A DNA stretch of 64,000 nt, taken from Candidatus Desulfofervidaceae bacterium (lineage in GTDB: Bacteria > Desulfobacterota > Desulfofervidia > Desulfofervidales > Desulfofervidaceae). A program made the position numbers and the translations under genes. Of the stretch, positions 24,441-34,170 are shown piece after piece. The stretch is from assembly GCA_027038965.1 (NCBI GenBank), contig JALWFG010000005.1, positions 1 to 64,000 of the forward strand. The letters are read 5' to 3'. The notes beneath the pieces were generated by a model. It made no database searches. It was not told the origin of the DNA and saw only the letters and a program-made list of their open reading frames with translations. Numbering within the stretch: position 1 is the stretch's first letter; the number at the start of each line of letters is the position of its first letter.

Positions 24441-25994
24441 ATGGATTTTATTAAGGAATTGTTAACCCCTGAGGCCTATCCTCACCCTGTAAACCAGATA
24501 GAACTCATTCAAACTCACATTTCGTGGGTATTCCTCACCGGTAATTTTGTTTATAAAATTAAAAAACCTGTTAATTTTGGATTTCTTGATTTTACTACCC
24601 TTGAAAGAAGACGTCACTTTTGCCAAGAGGAATTAAGGCTCAACAAACGCCTTTCCCCTGAAATATATCTTGATGTTATACCTATTGTGAAAAAAGGTAA
24701 GCATTATTTTGTGGGTGGCGAAGGAGAAGTTGTAGATTATGCGGTAAAAATGAAACAATTACCCCAAGAGACATGTCTTATTTCCTTACTAGAAAACAAA
24801 CAACTGACTCCCAAAATTATGGACAAGCTTACTTATTTAATGGCCTCTTTTTATCGCGATGCAGAAACAAATGCAGAAATTACCTCTTATGGTACCCCTG
24901 AAAAGATTATGATAAATATCAAAGAAAATTTTGACCAAACTGCCCCTTATGTTGGCAAAACTATAGAGAAAAAGATTTATGATGCTTTAAAAGGATATTC
25001 TTTTCGTTTCTTGGAAGAAAAAAGAGAAATATTTTTAAACCGTATTAAAACTGGCAAAATCAGAGACGGTCATGGCGATTTTCACTGTGCCAATATTTAT
25101 TGGCATAATGGAAAAATCTATGTTCTTGATTGCATTGAATTTAATACCCGATTTCGGTATGCAGATGTAGCGGCTGATGTGGCCTTTTTATTAATGGATC
25201 TAGATTTTCGCAAGGCTAGTTCCTTTGGAAACCGATTTTTAAATACCTTTTTGACTTATACCAATGACTTTGAGTTACTAGAGGTAAACGACTTTTATAA
25301 AATATACCGCGCGTATGTAAGGGGTAAAATTGCCAGTTTTGAAACGGGCTTGTCTGAAATACCTGAGGCCCAGCGCCAGCAGGCCTTAGAGAGGGCAAAG
25401 GCCTATTTTAACTTGGCATATAAATATTTAACTTCCTCTAAAAGGCCTTTTATTTTGGCAACCACAGGGCTTATTGGAAGTGGCAAATCCACCCTAGCTA
25501 CTCAGCTTGCCCCTGAAATCAATGCCGTTGTTATCCGCTCTGATGCCTTAAGAAAGCACTTGGCTAGCCTTAGACCCGATGAGCACGTTTATGCCCCATT
25601 TGGACAGGGGCTTTACAGCCCCCAAATGACGGCTAAGGTGTATAAAGAGCTCTTTAGATTAGCCCAAAAGGTTTTAGCTCTGGAATTACCCGTAATTCTA
25701 GATGCCTCATTTAGCAAGAGGGCCTCTAGGCAGGTAGTAAAGGAATTGGCCCAGACGGCCAATTGCCCTCATTTCTTTCTTTATTGTCAATGTCCTGAAG
25801 ACATTTTAAAGCAAAGACTTCAACAAAGGCAGTCTCATGGAGAAGATGTCTCGGATGCCCATTTTGATCTACTTGAGGCATTTAAAAGGGATTTTGACCC
25901 CTTGCTTCCAGAAGAAAACCAGATTATTGTAGATACTTCTGGGGATCTCAAGCAACCCATTGAACACATCAAGACCCTGCTCAAAATTAACTAA
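24441..25994 (+). CDS. Fusion of aminoglycoside phosphotransferase-like and P-loop kinase domains
   Basis: This 517-aa protein has an APH/choline kinase-like N-terminal domain: GHGDFHCANIYW is the catalytic loop, and DCIEFNTRFRYADVAADVAF contains the metal Asp. An AAA_33/zeta-like kinase domain follows from about residue 330 with Walker A GLIGSGKSTLA. The architecture is known as a bifunctional APH/ATP-binding protein; relatives have no established substrate. It follows the Fur-type gene with a one-base gap. Drug resistance should not be assumed. Confidence 0.85.
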   Translation: MDFIKELLTPEAYPHPVNQIELIQTHISWVFLTGNFVYKIKKPVNFGFLDFTTLERRRHFCQEELRLNKRLSPEIYLDVIPIVKKGKHYFVGGEGEVVDYAVKMKQLPQETCLISLLENKQLTPKIMDKLTYLMASFYRDAETNAEITSYGTPEKIMINIKENFDQTAPYVGKTIEKKIYDALKGYSFRFLEEKREIFLNRIKTGKIRDGHGDFHCANIYWHNGKIYVLDCIEFNTRFRYADVAADVAFLLMDLDFRKASSFGNRFLNTFLTYTNDFELLEVNDFYKIYRAYVRGKIASFETGLSEIPEAQRQQALERAKAYFNLAYKYLTSSKRPFILATTGLIGSGKSTLATQLAPEINAVVIRSDALRKHLASLRPDEHVYAPFGQGLYSPQMTAKVYKELFRLAQKVLALELPVILDASFSKRASRQVVKELAQTANCPHFFLYCQCPEDILKQRLQQRQSHGEDVSDAHFDLLEAFKRDFDPLLPEENQIIVDTSGDLKQPIEHIKTLLKIN

Positions 25995-25995
25995 A

Positions 25996-26481
25996 ATGGG
26001 CTTATCAGAAGCAAAGTCAAATATTAAAAGATATTTCTGGCTGGGGATAGCTACAGGCTTTGGAATAGGCTTTTTACCTGGTGCTCCTGGGACTTACGGT
26101 AGTTTACTGGCAATAATACTTTATTTCTTTTTCCCTAAATCTCCTATTTTTTACGCTCTTTTTATAATTTTGCTTCTTCCCATTGCCTGTATAAGCGCCT
26201 CCAAGGCAGAGATATATATTCAAAGACATGACCCCTCTCAGGTAGTCATTGATGAAATTCTTGGCATGTTGGTGGCCCTGTGGACCATCGTCCCTACGAT
26301 TTTTAGCCTTTTTCTGACCTTTTTACTCTTTCGTTTTTTCGATATTACCAAACCTTTCCCAATCAGACAATTGGAGTCCTTGCCTAAGGGAACAGGGATT
26401 ATTGCCGATGACCTTATGGCTGGCATTTATGCCCTTGCCTGTATTCATCTCTTACAATTTGTTTGGACCTCCTTACATTAA
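25996..26481 (+). CDS. pgpA: Phosphatidylglycerophosphatase A
   Basis: The ATG at 25996 follows the upstream stop by one base and gives a 161-aa protein. It is a PgpA-type integral membrane phosphatase that removes phosphate from phosphatidylglycerol phosphate. Visible features are GFLPGAPGTYGSLLAI, DEILGMLVAL and FRFFDITKPFPIRQLE, with the C-terminal DDLMAGIYA. These fit the family metal-binding Asp and Glu residues. A reading from 25960 overlaps the upstream gene and is less likely. Confidence 0.92.
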   Translation: MGLSEAKSNIKRYFWLGIATGFGIGFLPGAPGTYGSLLAIILYFFFPKSPIFYALFIILLLPIACISASKAEIYIQRHDPSQVVIDEILGMLVALWTIVPTIFSLFLTFLLFRFFDITKPFPIRQLESLPKGTGIIADDLMAGIYALACIHLLQFVWTSLH

Positions 26482-26650: not shown

Positions 26651-27646
26651 TCAAACCAAGCGTCTCCTGGCACATTTCAAAATCATCTCAACAAAGGCCT
26701 TGTAGGGAATCCCCGTTTTTTCTGCCAGCATAGGTAGATCTGAGTGGGTAGGGTGTAATCCCGGCAGGGGGTTTATTTCCAAAACATAAGGCAAATTCCG
26801 TTCATCTAGACGAATATCAATTCTAGAGGCATCCCGACAATTTAAAGCCCTGTGGGCCTCAAGGGCAATTCGTTTAATTTCCCTTTCTAAGTCGCCTGGC
26901 AAATCTGCCAGATGATATTCTACAAAGGTCTCACAGTCTTCTTTGGCCTTGGCGCCATATATGCCAGAAAGGCTTTGTTCTTTGATGATAATTTCCATAA
27001 TCCCAATTACACTGGCCTCATTTCCTGTGCCTAGAATGCCCACTGTAAATTCCCTACCTTTCAAAAACCTTTCTACCAACACCGGTTGCCTATAGGCAGA
27101 AAGAAGATATTTTACCCTTTCTTCTAAGTCTTGTTTATCAAAAATGATACAAGAGGCATCAATGCCCATGCCTGTGCCTTCATGAATGGGCTTTACAAAG
27201 AGAGGATAAGTCAATTTTTTTAGGGTTTTAATCTTTTCTATGTCCTTAATTACTACAAATTCAGCGGTAGGAATACCTTCTGCCTTCAATATCCGTTTGG
27301 CCATGGCCTTATCTAGGCACAAACACAGGGTAAGAGGATCAGAAAAGGTATAGGGAATTTGAAAGGCATCTAAAAGGGCTGGTATTTGGGCCTCCCGACT
27401 TCTGCCATGGCGTCCCTCAGCGATGTTAAAGACCAAAGATATCCGTTTGCCTTCATTTAAAAAGCGCATTAGAGAAAAAATGTTGCCAATTTCAACTACC
27501 TTATAACCCAACTCCTTCAAAGTGGCACTTAAGGCCGCAATGGTTTCTTCGGCATCGAATTCAGCGTATTTATCCCAAGGTTCTTCATTTTTTAACTCAT
27601 AATCAGAACGCAAATCATAGGTAAGCCCAATTATAAATTCACCCAT
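26651..27646 (-). CDS. ATP-grasp ligase of the D-alanine--D-alanine ligase type
   Basis: The 331-aa protein has the D-Ala-D-Ala ligase-like order: N-terminal strand IIGLTYDL, NIAEGRHGRSREAQIPALL, DKAMAKRILKAEGIPTAEF, the ATP loop KPIHEGTGMGID, then VERFLKGREFTVGILG, and the metal-binding RIDIRLDERNLPYVLEINP with GLHPTHSDLP. AAGGAG lies nine bases before the ATG. It overlaps the aminomutase gene by 16 bases, so it is probably translated with it. I infer it joins an amino acid, possibly a beta-amino acid made by that enzyme, to another substrate. Cell-wall Ddl function is possible but less likely in this context. Confidence 0.82.
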   Translation of the reverse strand: MGEFIIGLTYDLRSDYELKNEEPWDKYAEFDAEETIAALSATLKELGYKVVEIGNIFSLMRFLNEGKRISLVFNIAEGRHGRSREAQIPALLDAFQIPYTFSDPLTLCLCLDKAMAKRILKAEGIPTAEFVVIKDIEKIKTLKKLTYPLFVKPIHEGTGMGIDASCIIFDKQDLEERVKYLLSAYRQPVLVERFLKGREFTVGILGTGNEASVIGIMEIIIKEQSLSGIYGAKAKEDCETFVEYHLADLPGDLEREIKRIALEAHRALNCRDASRIDIRLDERNLPYVLEINPLPGLHPTHSDLPMLAEKTGIPYKAFVEMILKCARRRLV

Positions 27647-28731
27647 GGGTCTGTCTCCTTGTTATCATTGACAAGATGTTCATAGCCAGGGTTAGGATAA
27701 ATAAAGGTTTGCCCTTTATAATTTTTTAGCCACCAGCCCTTTTCGTCCTTTTTGATAAAATAATCTGGTAAAAGGGGAATTTTACCTCCGCCACCAGGGG
27801 CATCTATAATGTAATGGGGAACACAAAGTCCAGAAGTAAATCCTCTAAGACCCTTCACGATTTCTAGCCCCTTTTCTACTTGAGTTCGAAAGTGAGAGGT
27901 GCCCCTAGTTAAATCTGTTTGATAGAGATAGTAAGGTTTTACCCTGATTTTGACCAATTTTTGCATCAATGTCTTCATCGTAGCCACATCATCATTCACA
28001 CCCTTTAAAAGCACCGTTTGACAGCCTACAGGGATACCAGCATTTACCAGCCGTTCACATGCCTGAGCGCTCTGCTTTGTGATTTCAGCGGGGTGATTAA
28101 AGTGGGTATTAACATAAAGAGGATGGTATCTTTTTAGCATTTGGCACAATTTTCCCGTAATCCGATGAGGCAAGGTACAGGGAACCCTAGTACCAATCCT
28201 AATAATCTCCACATGCCTTATTTTTCTTAAGGCATTTAAAATGGGCTCTAACTCGGCATCTGTTAGCAATAAAGGGTCCCCACCAGAGAGTAAAACATCC
28301 CTGATTTCGGTATGCCTTTTAATGTATTCTAAACCTTTTTGAATAGTCTCCTTATTAACGACAAACTTGCGGCCAACCTTACGCTTTCGAGTGCAAAAAC
28401 GGCAATACATGGCACAACGGTTAGATACCAAAAAAAGTACCCTATCAGGGTAGCGATGGGTAAGATTGGGTACAGGACTTTGCTCCTCTTCACAAAGTGG
28501 GTCATCCAAACCATAAGCATCGTTAAGCTCACTTATATCTGGTACGGCCTGCTTCCAGATGGGGTCTCCCTTTTCCTTAATGAGACTTAAATAGTAAGGA
28601 TTAATCCGCATCGGATAAGTAGATATGACCCTTTTAATTTGGGTTATTTCAACCTCGGTTAGCTTAAAAAGCTGAGCCAGTTTTGAAGGCGTAATAATAC
28701 TTTGCTGGAGAAGCCTCTGCCACCTTTCCAT
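27631..28731 (-). CDS. KamA-family radical SAM aminomutase (lysine 2,3-aminomutase-like)
   Basis: This 366-aa protein has the radical SAM cluster CAMYCRFC, and PLP-site and substrate features of lysine 2,3-aminomutase. LSGGDPLLLTD is present, and so are YVNTHFNHPAEIT, DLTRGTSHFRT and DAPGGGGKIPLLP, the last two holding the Asp residues that bind the substrate amine in LAM. The start at 28731 has AGGAG seven bases upstream. An ATG further up adds 18 residues. EpmB, which modifies a lysine for elongation factor P, is the main alternative. The overlap with an ATP-grasp ligase is unlike the ablA-ablB osmolyte pair. Confidence 0.85.
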   Translation of the reverse strand: MERWQRLLQQSIITPSKLAQLFKLTEVEITQIKRVISTYPMRINPYYLSLIKEKGDPIWKQAVPDISELNDAYGLDDPLCEEEQSPVPNLTHRYPDRVLFLVSNRCAMYCRFCTRKRKVGRKFVVNKETIQKGLEYIKRHTEIRDVLLSGGDPLLLTDAELEPILNALRKIRHVEIIRIGTRVPCTLPHRITGKLCQMLKRYHPLYVNTHFNHPAEITKQSAQACERLVNAGIPVGCQTVLLKGVNDDVATMKTLMQKLVKIRVKPYYLYQTDLTRGTSHFRTQVEKGLEIVKGLRGFTSGLCVPHYIIDAPGGGGKIPLLPDYFIKKDEKGWWLKNYKGQTFIYPNPGYEHLVNDNKETDPWVNL

Positions 28732-29068
28732 TTTTTTCTCCTTTTTTCTATCTTCTTTGAAATGACTGGGTAAAATAAAAGACAAGATCCTAAGGTGGCC
28801 TTGAAACTTCTCCCATTTGTTTCCTCTTTAACCTCAAATTTCAAGGCTATTACAGCAAGATACATGCCAATTGAATTAAGTTCCCTAAAAAATAGAGCTA
28901 TTTGTTAGTAAGTATTGCCAACTGGCCAAAGATTTATCAGATTGAAAAGACATTTCAGAAGGAGTTTTCTTTTTGATAAAAAAATCCTGAGGATAAAAAA
29001 ACACAAATTGCCTTTATTCCAACTATTAATCGGCATATTTGTTGCTGGACTTTAGACAAAAAGCCTTA
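28732..29068. other. Intergenic region upstream of the aminomutase gene
   Basis: About 337 bases between psiE-like and kamA-like minus-strand genes. It holds the kamA ribosome binding site next to 28731 and must hold a promoter, but I see no clear promoter or gene. No repeat or hairpin stands out. Confidence 0.45.
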
Positions 29069-29500
29069 TTATTTAGGACTGATTTTTATAGCCAGGCTTC
29101 TGACAATGCCCAAGCTTAAAAAAATACAAGCAAAGCCTAAAAATGCACTAAATTGATGAAGAATCTTACCTTCAAACAGTTCTACAAAGAGCTCTCTAAG
29201 CACAAACACAAATCCTGAATCAATTAAAGAATGAAGTCTAAAACGATGGATTTCCTGATATTCTATGAAGCCTTTAAAGATTTCTATAACTACCAGCAGA
29301 GACAAAATATTGGCCACTGTGTGAGTAATAAAGGTGTTGAGGTCGTGTAGGTGAAAGAGATTTCTAATTTGTATAATGACTTGCCACAGCCCTAAAAACA
29401 AGACTGCAATGATGATTAAAACCAAAACATTGATAACGACCTTTACGGCCAATCTAAAAAGTGGTAGCGTGCCACTTTGAAATAAATTCAACCACTTCAT
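29069..29500 (-). CDS. PsiE-like inner membrane protein
   Basis: The 143-aa protein has four predicted membrane segments (about residues 15-45, 58-75, 95-110 and 115-135) and matches the phosphate-starvation-inducible PsiE family in its layout: hydrophobic segments with IEIFKGFIEYQEIHRFRLHSLID and FVLRELFVEL between them. The function of PsiE is unknown in Escherichia coli too. It is isolated from its neighbours by gaps of about 190-340 bases. Confidence 0.72.
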   Translation of the reverse strand: MKWLNLFQSGTLPLFRLAVKVVINVLVLIIIAVLFLGLWQVIIQIRNLFHLHDLNTFITHTVANILSLLVVIEIFKGFIEYQEIHRFRLHSLIDSGFVFVLRELFVELFEGKILHQFSAFLGFACIFLSLGIVRSLAIKISPK

Positions 29501-29694
29501 AAAAAGGGATAAAACACTATTAAAATAAATTTTTGATGAAGATTTAGTATGCTTTTAACAAAAAATATTAAGAAACTTTTGGTAGTGTAAAATTACTTGT
29601 GTTACCCTTTGAAGGGAGAGGGGTGCAGGACAAGAGAAGTGTTCAAAATAACTACACCACCAACGCCTCTATTAAAAGTGCACCACTTTTAATG

Positions 29695-29976
29695 TCAATT
29701 TCTATTTCTATTTCTTGCCTCTGGATAGACCTCTGTTCTATGCATAACTGCAAATATGAGAATGGTGTTTTCGTCTTTAAATTTAAACACTATTCTATAA
29801 TTCCCAACCCTTAGCTTCCAGTATCCTTTTAGTGTGCCTCTGAGTGGCTTGCCGTATTTTTGCGGGAATGTCATAAGTTTTGTTTCTATGGCCTTTTTTA
29901 TTCTTTCTCTTTGTGTTTTATCAAGTTTTGCAATATCTTCTTTCACTTCAGGATGGTATATGCCTTCAAAAGGCAA
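29695..29976 (-). CDS. RelE/ParE-family toxin of a type II toxin-antitoxin pair
   Basis: The 93-aa protein has the RelE fold pattern: YHPEVKEDIAKLDKTQRERI, LRGTLKGYWKLRVGNYRIVF and the C-terminal strand VMHRTEVY. RelE-type toxins cut mRNA at the ribosome. The start codon is TTG, two bases after the antitoxin stop, with GGGG at a plausible distance, so translation coupling with the antitoxin is likely. The C-terminus is a repetitive ARNRNRN. Confidence 0.82.
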   Translation of the reverse strand: MPFEGIYHPEVKEDIAKLDKTQRERIKKAIETKLMTFPQKYGKPLRGTLKGYWKLRVGNYRIVFKFKDENTILIFAVMHRTEVYPEARNRNRN

Positions 29977-29978
29977 GA

Positions 29979-30206
29979 TTATCCCCAGATATCTTCATGT
30001 GTTAAGATTTCTGATTTTTTTAGTGTTTTTTCTCTTTTTTCTGCAATATCAGATAAAGCTATATCCTCTCTCAGTTCAAGGGATTTCTTTATCAAATCCC
30101 TTGCCAAAGTAGACATAGATGTGCCTTCTTTTTTGGACATCTCTTTTAGTGTTGAATATAGCCTTCTTTCCAAAACTACATTCACTCTCGGATTTTTTGT
30201 GGACAT
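29979..30206 (-). CDS. Ribbon-helix-helix antitoxin
   Basis: This 75-aa protein starts MSTKNPRVNVVLERRLYSTL, a ribbon-helix-helix DNA-binding N-terminus, and continues with a helical toxin-binding tail ending EILTHEDIWG. GGAGG lies seven bases upstream of the ATG. It is directly upstream of the RelE-type toxin, as usual for type II pairs, and should repress its own promoter. The palindrome at 30290-30317 is about 85 bases upstream and could be operator or unrelated repeat. Confidence 0.8.
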   Translation of the reverse strand: MSTKNPRVNVVLERRLYSTLKEMSKKEGTSMSTLARDLIKKSLELREDIALSDIAEKREKTLKKSEILTHEDIWG

Positions 30207-30289
30207 GACAGACCTCCAGTCCTTTTCATGCCTTGTAAAAGAATTGTAACACTTATGATGAACCATGTAAAGAGAGATGATGAAGGACA

Positions 30290-30317
30290 TGTCCTGCACC
30301 CCTAGGGGTGCAGGACA
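30290..30317. repeat. 28-bp perfect palindrome
   Basis: The sequence is TGTCCTGCACCCCT followed directly by its own reverse complement, so it has no loop. A half-palindrome (GGGGTGCAGGACA) lies at 29620-29632 on the other side of the toxin-antitoxin pair, and a degenerate full copy at 1825-1851. It may be a small mobile palindrome, an operator of the antitoxin, or a transcription end for corA (whose stop is at 30380). Confidence 0.75.
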
Positions 30318-30379
30318 GGACATTGCCAAGCTTTTATTTCATCCCTTTGAGGTTGATTACAGTTTTTAGTCTAACATTT

Positions 30380-31441
30380 CTAAATCCACCGCTTCTTTTT
30401 GAAATAAAAGAGCATGCCTAAGCCAATAACCAACATGATAATAAGAACAGTCGGGTATCCCCACTTCCAATTAAGTTCAGGCATGTATCTAAAATTCATA
30501 CCATAGATGCCTGTGATCAGGGTTAAGGGAATAAAAATTGTAGCAATAATGGTCAATAGGGTCATAATTTCATTCATTTTGTTGCTTAGACTTGAGAGAT
30601 AAATATCAAGCATGCCTGTAAGTTGGTCATTAAAGGTTTCTATTAGGTCTATAATCTGCACGGTATGGTCATAGACATCTCTAAAATAAAGGGCGGTTTC
30701 CCTGGTAACCAATTCAGATTCTGACTTTTCTATAAAGGAAATGGCCTCTTTTAATGGCCAAATGGACTTGCGAAGCAAGATTAGTTTCCTCTTTAAGTGC
30801 TGAATTTGCCTTAAAGTTCCTTTATCCGGACGGACAAGGAGTTTATCTTCCAGATTTTCAGTAATTTCTCCTATGTTTTCCAAAACAACAAAATAATGGT
30901 CTATGATGATGTCCATTAAGGCGTAAAGAAGGTAATCAGCCCCCATGCTTCTAATGCGGCTTTGGGGAATTTTTATCCTTTGTTTAATGGGTTCAAAGAT
31001 GGTGTTGTTCTTTTCCTGAAAGGAAATCACAAAGTTTTTACCCAAAATGAAGCTTATCTGTTGTTGCTCAACCTCCTTCTTCTCTTCATCCCATATTAGG
31101 GCCTTAAGCACGATAAAGATGTAGTTTTCAAAGTCTTCTGCCTTGGGACGTTCATGAACATTTAAGATATCTTCCAAGACAAGGGGATGAATGCCAAAGT
31201 GTTGGCCGATTTTTTCTATGATTACCTCTTGGTACAATCCCTTTATTTCCCACCACCTAATTGCCTGAGGGGGTTCACAAGCAAGACATTCCTCAATATT
31301 AGTAATGACCCTTTCGCAATAACTCGCTTTGTCGTATTCAATCAAGTTTATCTCCATGGATTGATTTCGATGCCTGCCGGTATATACTAGTGAGCCTGGC
31401 GAGGTTCCTATCTTTTCTGCTCTGATGTGTCTTTGTTTCAT
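30380..31441 (-). CDS. corA: CorA-family magnesium/cobalt channel
   Basis: CorA is a homopentameric Mg2+ channel of the inner membrane. The 353-aa protein has the soluble helical N-terminal domain and two C-terminal membrane helices (about residues 290-315 and 325-347). Between them is YGMNFRYMPE, the family GMN motif and the loop that follows it. It overlaps the stop of the c-di-AMP cyclase fusion by four bases, so the two genes are most likely one transcript. Magnesium and potassium handling is a known target of c-di-AMP in other bacteria, so the pairing may be functional. Confidence 0.94.
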   Translation of the reverse strand: MKQRHIRAEKIGTSPGSLVYTGRHRNQSMEINLIEYDKASYCERVITNIEECLACEPPQAIRWWEIKGLYQEVIIEKIGQHFGIHPLVLEDILNVHERPKAEDFENYIFIVLKALIWDEEKKEVEQQQISFILGKNFVISFQEKNNTIFEPIKQRIKIPQSRIRSMGADYLLYALMDIIIDHYFVVLENIGEITENLEDKLLVRPDKGTLRQIQHLKRKLILLRKSIWPLKEAISFIEKSESELVTRETALYFRDVYDHTVQIIDLIETFNDQLTGMLDIYLSSLSNKMNEIMTLLTIIATIFIPLTLITGIYGMNFRYMPELNWKWGYPTVLIIMLVIGLGMLFYFKKKRWI

Positions 31442-33165
31442 TCTATAACCTTTAATTCTACCTTTGGTCTTAATAATTGCGGTTGATGACCATTAGAGGA
31501 TAGTATTGCAAAATTTATATTTAACTGCTTGGGCGAAACCCCATTTTTTACCAAATACCCAAATACTGCTTGGGCCCTTCTTTGAGCCAATCTTTGATTA
31601 TAGGCCTTGGGGCCAGTGGGGGTAGCGTAACCAGTAATAGTCAATCTGAGATGAGGATTCTTTTTAAGTATCTGAACCATGTTGTTAAGTATCGGTCTGA
31701 ATTGAGGTTTAATTGTTGTTCTATTCAGGTCGAAAAAGATACTTAATATGCGTTCTGTTTCAATGGTGACCTTGACTGAATTTTCCTTTAAAGGTTTTAC
31801 ATAACTTGGGAAAATAAGATTGGCAGAAAGGGTAGTAGTAGCGGCAATGTTTCTCAAATCAATAGGTTCTGTTGGAATATTAGAGGGAATTTTCTTCTTA
31901 GGGGTCAAAACCTGAATAAATTGGGGTGCTACTGTGATTTTCTTAAGAATAGTTCCTGGGGGAGGACTTCCTGAAGTCTGGACCTTTATGGGAACGTTTA
32001 TTGAAATTAATTGATGGGCTAATAATTCAATTCTATTGGGTTTTATTTTCACCACTAAAAGGCTTAAGGGCCGATGGACCATATCTTCTGTCAAGAAGAT
32101 TGTTTGGGCACCCTCCTTTATTTTTGACATGTCTATTGTTACCTTTAATTCCTGTGGATTTAAAAGGCTAAATGCCTGCTTGGAACCTACCAAAGTTACG
32201 GTTACCTCCTTGGGATTAAAGTCATCAATTACCCAATCAGAACTCAAGTTTTGGAATTCTATAGGCACCACAAAGTCGCGGTAAATATTTCCTTTTTGAT
32301 AGCCAAATACCAACCACAAGCCACAGGCAAGCAAAAGGGCTAATCCCTTTTCCAAGGGATTTTCCATAAGCCGTCTCAACCATCCTTTGGGAGTACTTTT
32401 GGGAAATTTTTGCTGATAAAAGTGTTCTATAATAGGGCGCAATTGCTCTACATTGTTTAACTTTTTCAACCGACCATTCTTGGCAATACTGATTGTTTGC
32501 CTTTCCTCCGAAACTACAATACACAAGGCGTCTGAATGCTCTGATAACCCCAAGGCCGCCGTGTGGCGGAGCCCCCGATTCCCAATTTCTTTAATATTTG
32601 AAGACAGGGGCAAATGGCACCCAAACTTGACTATTCGTCCATGTTCTACAATAACGGCCCCATCATGTCCCAAGGAATGGGGGTCAAAAAGGCTTTCAAG
32701 CAACCCCTCGCTTAAAATGCCTTCTAAAGGGGTGCCTCCTTGGAGATGCCTGTCAAGTGGTTCTAGCCCCTTAAGCACAATTAAGGCCCCATATTTTTTG
32801 CGCACCAGACTTGTTATTCCCCTTATTAAAACATCTACTTCAGGATAGGGTGAAGCTTGAAAGCGCCTTTTGCTAAAAATCCCCCACATTCCTATCTGTT
32901 CAAAAAATCTTCTTAAATCTTCTTGAAAGATAACCACCATGGCAATGATTAAAATGGCAAAAAAACCTTTCAAAACAAAAACTGTAAGATACATTTGCAT
33001 AAACAGGGCCACGATATATATCAATCCCAACACCAAAAGCCCTATAAAGACGAATCTGGAAGTAGTTTTCTTAAACCAAATTAAGGCCGTATAGGCAAAG
33101 ACGGCCATTACGAAAATGTCAAAAAAGTCTGCTAATCTGAAATGGTGAATGATATTTATCAACAT
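31438..33165 (-). CDS. Diadenylate cyclase CdaA fused to YbbR repeats and an OmpA-like domain
   Basis: The 575-aa protein is built in four parts. Residues 10-80 hold three CdaA-type membrane helices. Residues 85-245 are a DisA_N/DAC domain with HDGAVIVE (DGA at 168-170) and GNRGLRH (RH at 200-201; the usual RHR reads RHT) plus the SEHSDALCIVVSEE block. A fourth helix at about 273-289 leads to YbbR/CdaR-like repeats (about 290-470). Residues 475-575 are an OmpA-like domain (LTITGYATPTG, AYNQRLAQRRAQAV). DAC proteins make c-di-AMP. In Gram-positives CdaA and CdaR are separate proteins. The expected topology places DAC in the cytosol and YbbR-OmpA in the periplasm. The Asp that binds peptidoglycan in OmpA (HTD) is Thr here; the Arg is kept. 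Confidence 0.9.
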   Translation of the reverse strand: MLINIIHHFRLADFFDIFVMAVFAYTALIWFKKTTSRFVFIGLLVLGLIYIVALFMQMYLTVFVLKGFFAILIIAMVVIFQEDLRRFFEQIGMWGIFSKRRFQASPYPEVDVLIRGITSLVRKKYGALIVLKGLEPLDRHLQGGTPLEGILSEGLLESLFDPHSLGHDGAVIVEHGRIVKFGCHLPLSSNIKEIGNRGLRHTAALGLSEHSDALCIVVSEERQTISIAKNGRLKKLNNVEQLRPIIEHFYQQKFPKSTPKGWLRRLMENPLEKGLALLLACGLWLVFGYQKGNIYRDFVVPIEFQNLSSDWVIDDFNPKEVTVTLVGSKQAFSLLNPQELKVTIDMSKIKEGAQTIFLTEDMVHRPLSLLVVKIKPNRIELLAHQLISINVPIKVQTSGSPPPGTILKKITVAPQFIQVLTPKKKIPSNIPTEPIDLRNIAATTTLSANLIFPSYVKPLKENSVKVTIETERILSIFFDLNRTTIKPQFRPILNNMVQILKKNPHLRLTITGYATPTGPKAYNQRLAQRRAQAVFGYLVKNGVSPKQLNINFAILSSNGHQPQLLRPKVELKVIE

Positions 33166-33198
33166 TGCTCTAAATATAATATATGTTTATTTGTTTTC

Positions 33199-34170
33199 CT
33201 ACAAGTCTTCATTTTTTCTTTTTACCACATACTCCAGAAGGGATTTTATGATGTCCTCGTAGCTTAAACCGCACTTATAGGCAGATTTCAAGAAGGTAGA
33301 ACCCGGACTTAAACAGGGATTGGCATTAACTTCTAAAATGTAGAGGTTATTTTCTTTGGAAAGCTTCATATCCACCCTAGCGTAATCCCGACACTTGGTA
33401 ATTTCAAAGGCCTTAAGGGCTAGCTTCTGAATTCGCTTTTTCAGAAATAACGGCAAATCAGGGAAAAAGGCATAGTCAGCATGACTTTGCCATTTGGTTT
33501 GATAATCTATAATCTGCCCATGGTGGGGCCTTATCTCGGCTATGGCCAACACCTTTGGTGTGGGATACCCTAAAAGAGAAACTGTAAATTCCCTTCCCTC
33601 TATGAACTCCTCAATCAAAATAGGTTGATTAAACTTACTATAATATTGAGGCAAAAAATCCATTAGGGCAGAAATTTCAGTAAAAATGTTTTGGGCCTCT
33701 ATTCCAATACTTCCATCTTCGTAGGCTGGTTTAACAATAACAGGAAGTTTCAAACTGACAATGTCTTTGATCCTTTTGCCATCATAAACACCAAAATTTG
33801 GTGTGGAAAGTCCAGTTGCTGTGAAAAGATGTTTGGCCAAAATTTTATTGGTGGTTACCGTCATTCCCTCTAGACCTGTTCCAGTATAGGAAATGTTTAA
33901 CAATTCCATGATACCACAAATATGAGCTTGAAAAGCAGCTTTTTCTTCAACACTTTCACAAAAATTAAAACACAATTGAATATTTTTGGTTTTGAGGATA
34001 CCTATAAACTTATCAATTTGTTGCCTAGTTATAGGAATCTGGCATGTCTTATAACCCAAGTTTTCCAAAACCAATTCAGTTTTTTTGACAACTTCAAGCA
34101 CGTCACTACTGGCCTCGCGCCACAAATAATTTTATAAAGTCGGTTTGTTGTATACAAGCCCAATTTTCAT
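33199..34170 (-). CDS. ATP-grasp ligase (D-Ala-D-Ala ligase-like) with an in-frame TAA at codon 13
   Basis: The body of about 308 residues has the ligase layout: NILAKHLFTATGLSTPNFGV, the ATP loop KPAYEDGSIGIE, IEEFIEGREFTVSLLG and the metal-site ARVDMKLSKENNLYILEVNANPC (in part). AGGAGG lies nine bases before an ATG at 34170, and the first codons read MKIGLVYNKPTL, the expected first strand. They are followed by TAA (34132-34134) in the same frame, and the open frame then continues with NYLWREAS. So the gene is either truncated by one nonsense change, re-started at TTG 34125, read through, or misassembled. It is upstream of the CdaA fusion by 33 bases. Confidence 0.75.

Follow-up and report, generated by a model that had tools for sequence, protein, structure and literature searches.

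A CdaA-type diadenylate cyclase carrying YbbR repeats and an OmpA-like tail in one chain in a Candidatus Desulfofervidaceae bacterium

The window analysed here (64,000 nucleotides, positions 1 to 64,000 of contig JALWFG010000005.1) encodes a single-chain diadenylate cyclase of 575 aa (31438–33165, minus strand), in which a CdaA_N domain, a DAC domain, a fourth transmembrane helix, two YbbR repeats and an OmpA-like domain follow one another in that order. It is a variant of a known family, well formed and distinguished by one unusual added domain. The single-chain CdaA-CdaR(YbbR) part is an existing natural arrangement, widespread in the phylum and not special to this genome, whereas the OmpA tail is the unusual feature, found in one species only among the relatives examined. 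With moderate confidence, we favour the reading that the protein is an active membrane-bound CdaA-type cyclase to which a YbbR regulator is covalently joined via the fourth helix, the OmpA tail serving as an extra envelope-contact or oligomerisation module.

Domain layout and predicted topology

The cyclase frame reads from 33165 to 31438 on the minus strand, which the preliminary description had left unstated, with an ATG start, a TGA stop and 575 codons free of internal stops. Pfam searches located the CdaA_N three-helix membrane domain at residues 7–84 (32914–33147; PF19293, 1.7e-7), the DAC catalytic domain at residues 116–232 (32470–32820; PF02457, 3e-34), YbbR repeats in two stretches at residues ~295–470 (31756–32283; PF07949, 1e-13, the best stretch being residues 300–380) and the OmpA-like domain at residues 477–551, followed by a tail to 575 (31513–31737; PF00691, 4.2e-16), all on the minus strand. 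All four matches exceeded the curated Pfam cut-offs, CdaA_N with 31.7 bits against 23.8. TIGR00159 (CdaA, NCBIfam) matched residues 11–248 at 1.5e-49, with a score of 168.6 bits that lies below the equivalog cut-off of 188.8; the protein was therefore classed as a CdaA variant and not as a standard CdaA. The nearest solved structures were CdaA/DacA for the front part and OmpA/Pal domains for the end part, and comparison of the YbbR region with PDB sequences gave no relevant match. The preliminary description had placed a CdaA-type DAC domain, a fourth helix, YbbR and OmpA in one 575-residue frame; the open reading frame, the Pfam matches and the structure model all bore this out, with YbbR and OmpA signals both present after residue 290.

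An AlphaFold2 model of the cyclase was built on an alignment of 54 sequences (mean pLDDT 84). The DAC and YbbR domains mostly scored above 90 and the OmpA part about 70–86, while the pTM of 0.45 indicates that the relative arrangement of the domains is not confidently predicted. The model contains four long membrane-type helices, three in CdaA_N (residues 11–31, 37–55 and 59–79) and a fourth at residues 270–288 (32302–32358, minus strand), where a hydropathy peak was also found (270–271). The modelled DAC domain superposes on solved CdaA at 1.3–1.5 Å, the YbbR region is beta-rich, and one beta strand (463–478) is predicted to continue from the second YbbR repeat into the OmpA core. The helices support the topology proposed earlier, in which the DAC domain would lie inside the cell and the YbbR and OmpA parts outside.

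The protein thus shares with CdaA (DacA) the three N-terminal membrane helices, the DAC fold and a DAC domain with DGA and RH motifs, but adds a fourth helix and putative periplasmic domains in the same chain, and reads RHT instead of RHR. As in CdaR/YbbR, a membrane helix precedes YbbR repeats that would lie outside; in Firmicutes, however, CdaR/YbbR is encoded by an adjacent gene, whereas here two YbbR repeats are covalently part of the cyclase. No glmM gene was found beside the cyclase within the window, a further difference from CdaR/YbbR systems. In the proposed mechanism, the fourth helix would hold YbbR just above the cyclase on the periplasmic side, two or more chains would bring their DAC domains face to face so that two ATP are converted to c-di-AMP, and periplasmic YbbR contacts would set this pairing.

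Single-chain DAC-YbbR proteins in the phylum and the OmpA-like tail

The protein was searched against 99 relatives and 395 genomes of the phylum. Two arrangements were observed among the searched phylum genomes: cdaA and cdaR as adjacent genes, or one frame of ~400–520 codons. By manual count, some 100 or more of the 395 sampled genomes had the one-frame form, and in some genomes a fused protein coexisted with a separate CdaA. A GTDB-wide alignment-based pattern scan returned 253 relatives, of which the best 80 loci were kept, and a single-protein scan of GTDB contigs returned 0. The best 80 of the 253 came mostly from Syntrophaceae, Smithella and other deltaproteobacterial MAGs, and in 78 of these 80 loci DAC and YbbR lay in one frame of at least 440 aa. 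The fusion of CdaA with YbbR, taken in the preliminary description to be itself novel, is therefore common. The Desulfobacterota DAC-YbbR proteins (Syntrophus and Smithella MAGs; L003–L140) have the same domain order and RHT motif, often with corA downstream, and reach 56% identity to the window protein over residues 2–472, but stop at about residue 470–500 without an OmpA tail. In many genomes (such as G104, G157, G269 and G383), cdaA and cdaR came out as a single match interrupted by one in-frame stop, which suggests that the fusion is often gained and lost through one codon, or that the stop is read through.

CdaR interacts with the membrane domain of CdaA (PMC6368335), and in a Gram-negative species it acts as a negative regulator (PMC9259658). 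CdaR/YbbR is reported to affect the cyclase in opposite ways depending on the species (PMC9259658), and work in S. aureus did not conclusively show that YbbR has a regulatory role (PMC6368335). A single chain forces a 1:1 stoichiometry, and a single purified protein would suffice to test the CdaA-CdaR question. Our literature search revealed no description of single-chain CdaA-CdaR (DAC-YbbR) fusions among open-access papers, and a search on Syntrophus c-di-AMP returned nothing relevant.

When the same architecture was sought elsewhere with the OmpA tail included, no second case was obtained. Tail length and BLAST, with the longest frames included, revealed an OmpA tail in 0 of >150 fused relatives, a Pfam scan of 50 fused homologs identified none, and no OmpA-tailed protein was found in 42 genomes from the class of one relative or among plasmid and phage records. 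The tail nevertheless belongs clearly to the OmpA family: it aligns gap-free with OmpA-family domains of known structure, gives matches to OmpA/Pal proteins in the PDB to 4e-13, and shares the fold signature and the motif Asn and Arg with OmpA C-terminal and Pal domains (PDB 5WTP, 6TOP, 1OAP, 3TD3-5). In contrast to those domains, it is carried by an inner-membrane cyclase and departs from the peptidoglycan motif TD(x)7NxxLSxxRA, which here reads AT(x)7NxxLAxxRA (AT(x)7NQRLAQRRA). Thr515 occupies the position of the diaminopimelate-binding Asp, Asn523 and Arg530 are kept, and the terminal NRR segment is absent. The Asp is retained in the other OmpA domains examined in the same genome (G000) and in G001, G002, G005 and G078. 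The Asp, Asn and Arg of this motif are critical (PMC5104382), and Tp0624-D3 of Treponema, a comparable domain with Ala in place of the Asp, did not bind diaminopimelate (PMC5104382). Tp0624 likewise bears a divergent OmpA-like domain that has lost the binding Asp and kept the Arg, and a MotB-like inner-membrane-anchored model has been proposed for it; unlike the window protein, it has no cyclase and carries other partner domains.

These features bear on what the tail does, and an altered ligand, a protein contact and a relic are open candidates for its role. A relic has an appreciable though minority claim: the OmpA tail would be a functionless add-on, captured and partly degenerated, and the protein would work like the OmpA-free DAC-YbbR fusions of Syntrophales. 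The occurrence of the tail in a single species, the lower model confidence in this part, and the change of Asp to Thr together with the missing NRR segment, where other examined OmpA domains keep the Asp, all point in this direction. However, drift without constraint would be likely to erode a domain, whereas the tail contains no stop or frameshift, retains Asn523 and Arg530 and still matches the OmpA fold strongly (4e-16 in Pfam, 4e-13 in the PDB).

It appears unlikely, by comparison, that the domain grips peptidoglycan through Asn523 and Arg530 as a canonical tether and makes the cyclase a direct sensor of wall strain or wall distance. The OmpA/Pal fold, the conserved Asn and Arg, and a topology that would put the domain in the periplasm are consistent with such a tether, but Thr515 stands in for the Asp that would hold the diaminopimelate amine, both Asp and Arg are reportedly critical (PMC6572160), and a domain without the Asp, that of Treponema, failed to bind (PMC5104382). 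Canonical peptidoglycan binding is doubtful because the Asp is replaced and the NRR segment is missing. Of the cell-wall sensor suggested in the preliminary description, the periplasmic topology stands, whereas the sensing itself is weakened by the loss of Asp and NRR and by the confinement of the tail to one species.

We therefore return to the envelope-contact or oligomerisation module named at the outset. In this species alone, the OmpA-fold domain would pack directly onto the last YbbR strand and most likely pass the state of the wall or the osmotic state to the YbbR switch, through a contact that does not use the standard diaminopimelate grip. A bolder version, which we put forward only tentatively, is a covalent link between envelope and messenger: the OmpA module with its altered site would pull or position the YbbR switch and thereby place c-di-AMP output under the control of the wall state or of an outer-envelope protein, all within one protein co-translated with the CorA Mg2+ channel. 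The sensing and the direction of regulation in this scheme are putative. The OmpA-tailed form may nonetheless be a natural hint that the CdaR/YbbR signal originates in the wall or envelope.

At three DAC-YbbR loci of other genomes (L086:2674-3846, L105:2695-3843 and L106:2926-3798), a divergent gene beside the fused gene encodes a secreted-looking product whose C-terminal OmpA domain has the full peptidoglycan motif. Such a product might be the in-trans equivalent of the fused tail.

The RHT motif and the integrity of the frame

The window DAC is the only DAC in the genome. Its D168-G169-A170 motif is intact, and the loop at residues 200–202 reads R200-H201-T202, as had been noted in the preliminary description together with the concern that activity was not assured. 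Among 109 fused relatives with at least 42% identity, 101 carry RHT and the remainder mostly Ser or Ala at the third position, with DGA kept. RHR was found in most of the more distant fused proteins and in all six separate CdaA proteins compared. RHT is thus a clade-wide variant and no sign of decay, and its conservation beside otherwise unchanged motif residues speaks for an active enzyme. In addition, several genomes of the RHT clade showed no second CdaA-like protein, and the RHT enzymes of the clade are therefore probably active. On these sequence comparisons, the earlier concern is answered, and loss of activity through RHT was rejected as the default reading because the variant is clade-wide.

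We consider it very unlikely that the DAC domain is inactive or makes a different product and that the protein is a pseudo-enzyme. The motif as a whole is essential in M. tuberculosis DacA, where the triple change of RHR to AAA abolishes activity, although the third position was not tested singly (PMC3328451). Here only the third residue differs while Arg and His are retained, RHT, RHS or RHA is fixed across a large clade with DGA intact, and in some of its genomes the RHT protein is the sole CdaA-like protein found.

An even smaller probability was assigned to a sequencing or assembly error that fused a normal DAC-YbbR gene, with a stop near residue 470, to a nearby OmpA fragment. The OmpA-tailed form does occur in one genome only, and both other reading frames have stops at the YbbR-OmpA junction, one of which would terminate translation close to residue 470, where the relatives naturally stop, so that a single indel could in principle part DAC-YbbR from OmpA. 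However, the OmpA part starts at its first core strand directly after the strand of the second YbbR repeat and brings neither a linker nor its own start codon and signal peptide. The 4-nt overlap with corA falls at the end of the OmpA part, as it would in an unbroken operon, and the gene sits on one 397-kb contig of a genome with completeness 100. A frame error joining two genes is unlikely in view of the missing signal peptide and linker, the modelled strand shared by both domains and the other-frame stops at the junction; it was given low weight on account of these stops, the missing signal peptide and the corA overlap.

Genomic neighbourhood, putative circuit and origin

A gene for a corA-type Mg2+/Co2+ transporter (30380–31441, minus strand; TIGR00383, 1.8e-98, above cut-off) overlaps the cyclase stop codon by 4 nt (ATGA), and a D-Ala-D-Ala-ligase-like ATP-grasp gene (33199–34125, minus strand; PF07478, 1.1e-36) lies upstream, 33 nt from the cyclase start. 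This tight linkage supports the earlier statement that the cyclase is operonic with corA and an ATP-grasp ligase. In the best 80 of the 253 GTDB relatives, where CorA identity was checked for two, 18 loci had corA on the same strand at a downstream distance of −5 to 101 nt, and in nine others it followed roughly one gene later. The linkage is common to many Syntrophales DAC-YbbR loci (e.g. L073, L074, L092, L113, L126, L129 and L133) and is not present in the nearest relatives G078 and G164. The recurrent dac-ybbR/corA operon points to a link between c-di-AMP and Mg2+, and the coupled CorA channel would tie the c-di-AMP signal to Mg2+ handling. No description of a c-di-AMP/CorA link or operon was found in our literature search, and an Rfam search of the window revealed no c-di-AMP riboswitch or other RNA.

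The genome also encodes a PgpH-type phosphodiesterase with HDED, 7TM and HD domains (L225:4863-7241) and a KtrA-like RCK protein beside a Ktr/Trk-type membrane protein. In the proposed circuit, c-di-AMP would be read by the KtrA-type K+ channel regulator and removed by the PgpH-type phosphodiesterase. We infer the tie of both putative effectors to c-di-AMP in this genome; both families also occur in DAC-less relatives, and for this reason neither is tied to the window synthase. PgpH-type phosphodiesterase genes were kept in G001–G004, four genomes with no detectable DAC.

None of the four genomes available from the family (G001–G004, the sister species included) has dac or this corA, so that lateral acquisition of the cyclase and corA is probable and is the simplest reading of the locus. 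In a quick tree, with local support of 82–92 at some forks and modest deep support, the window gene fell in the Syntrophales-type RHT clade, apart from the gene of G005, a genome of the same order. Relatives of the ATP-grasp protein within the family showed only 32–34% identity, and the gene order of the sister-species genome G001 departs right after the gene matching window positions 25933–26478. Repeated loss of dac and corA in the family is an alternative that these data also accommodate.

A cluster at 26651–34125, unmatched in the sister genome where tested, contains two D-Ala-D-Ala-ligase-like ATP-grasp genes, a KamA-family radical SAM gene (lysine-2,3-aminomutase-like), a PsiE-like gene, corA and the cyclase, and may be a laterally acquired island. 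Inside it, at 29695–30329, two short minus-strand frames resemble, by eye only, a RelE/ParE-type toxin and its antitoxin.
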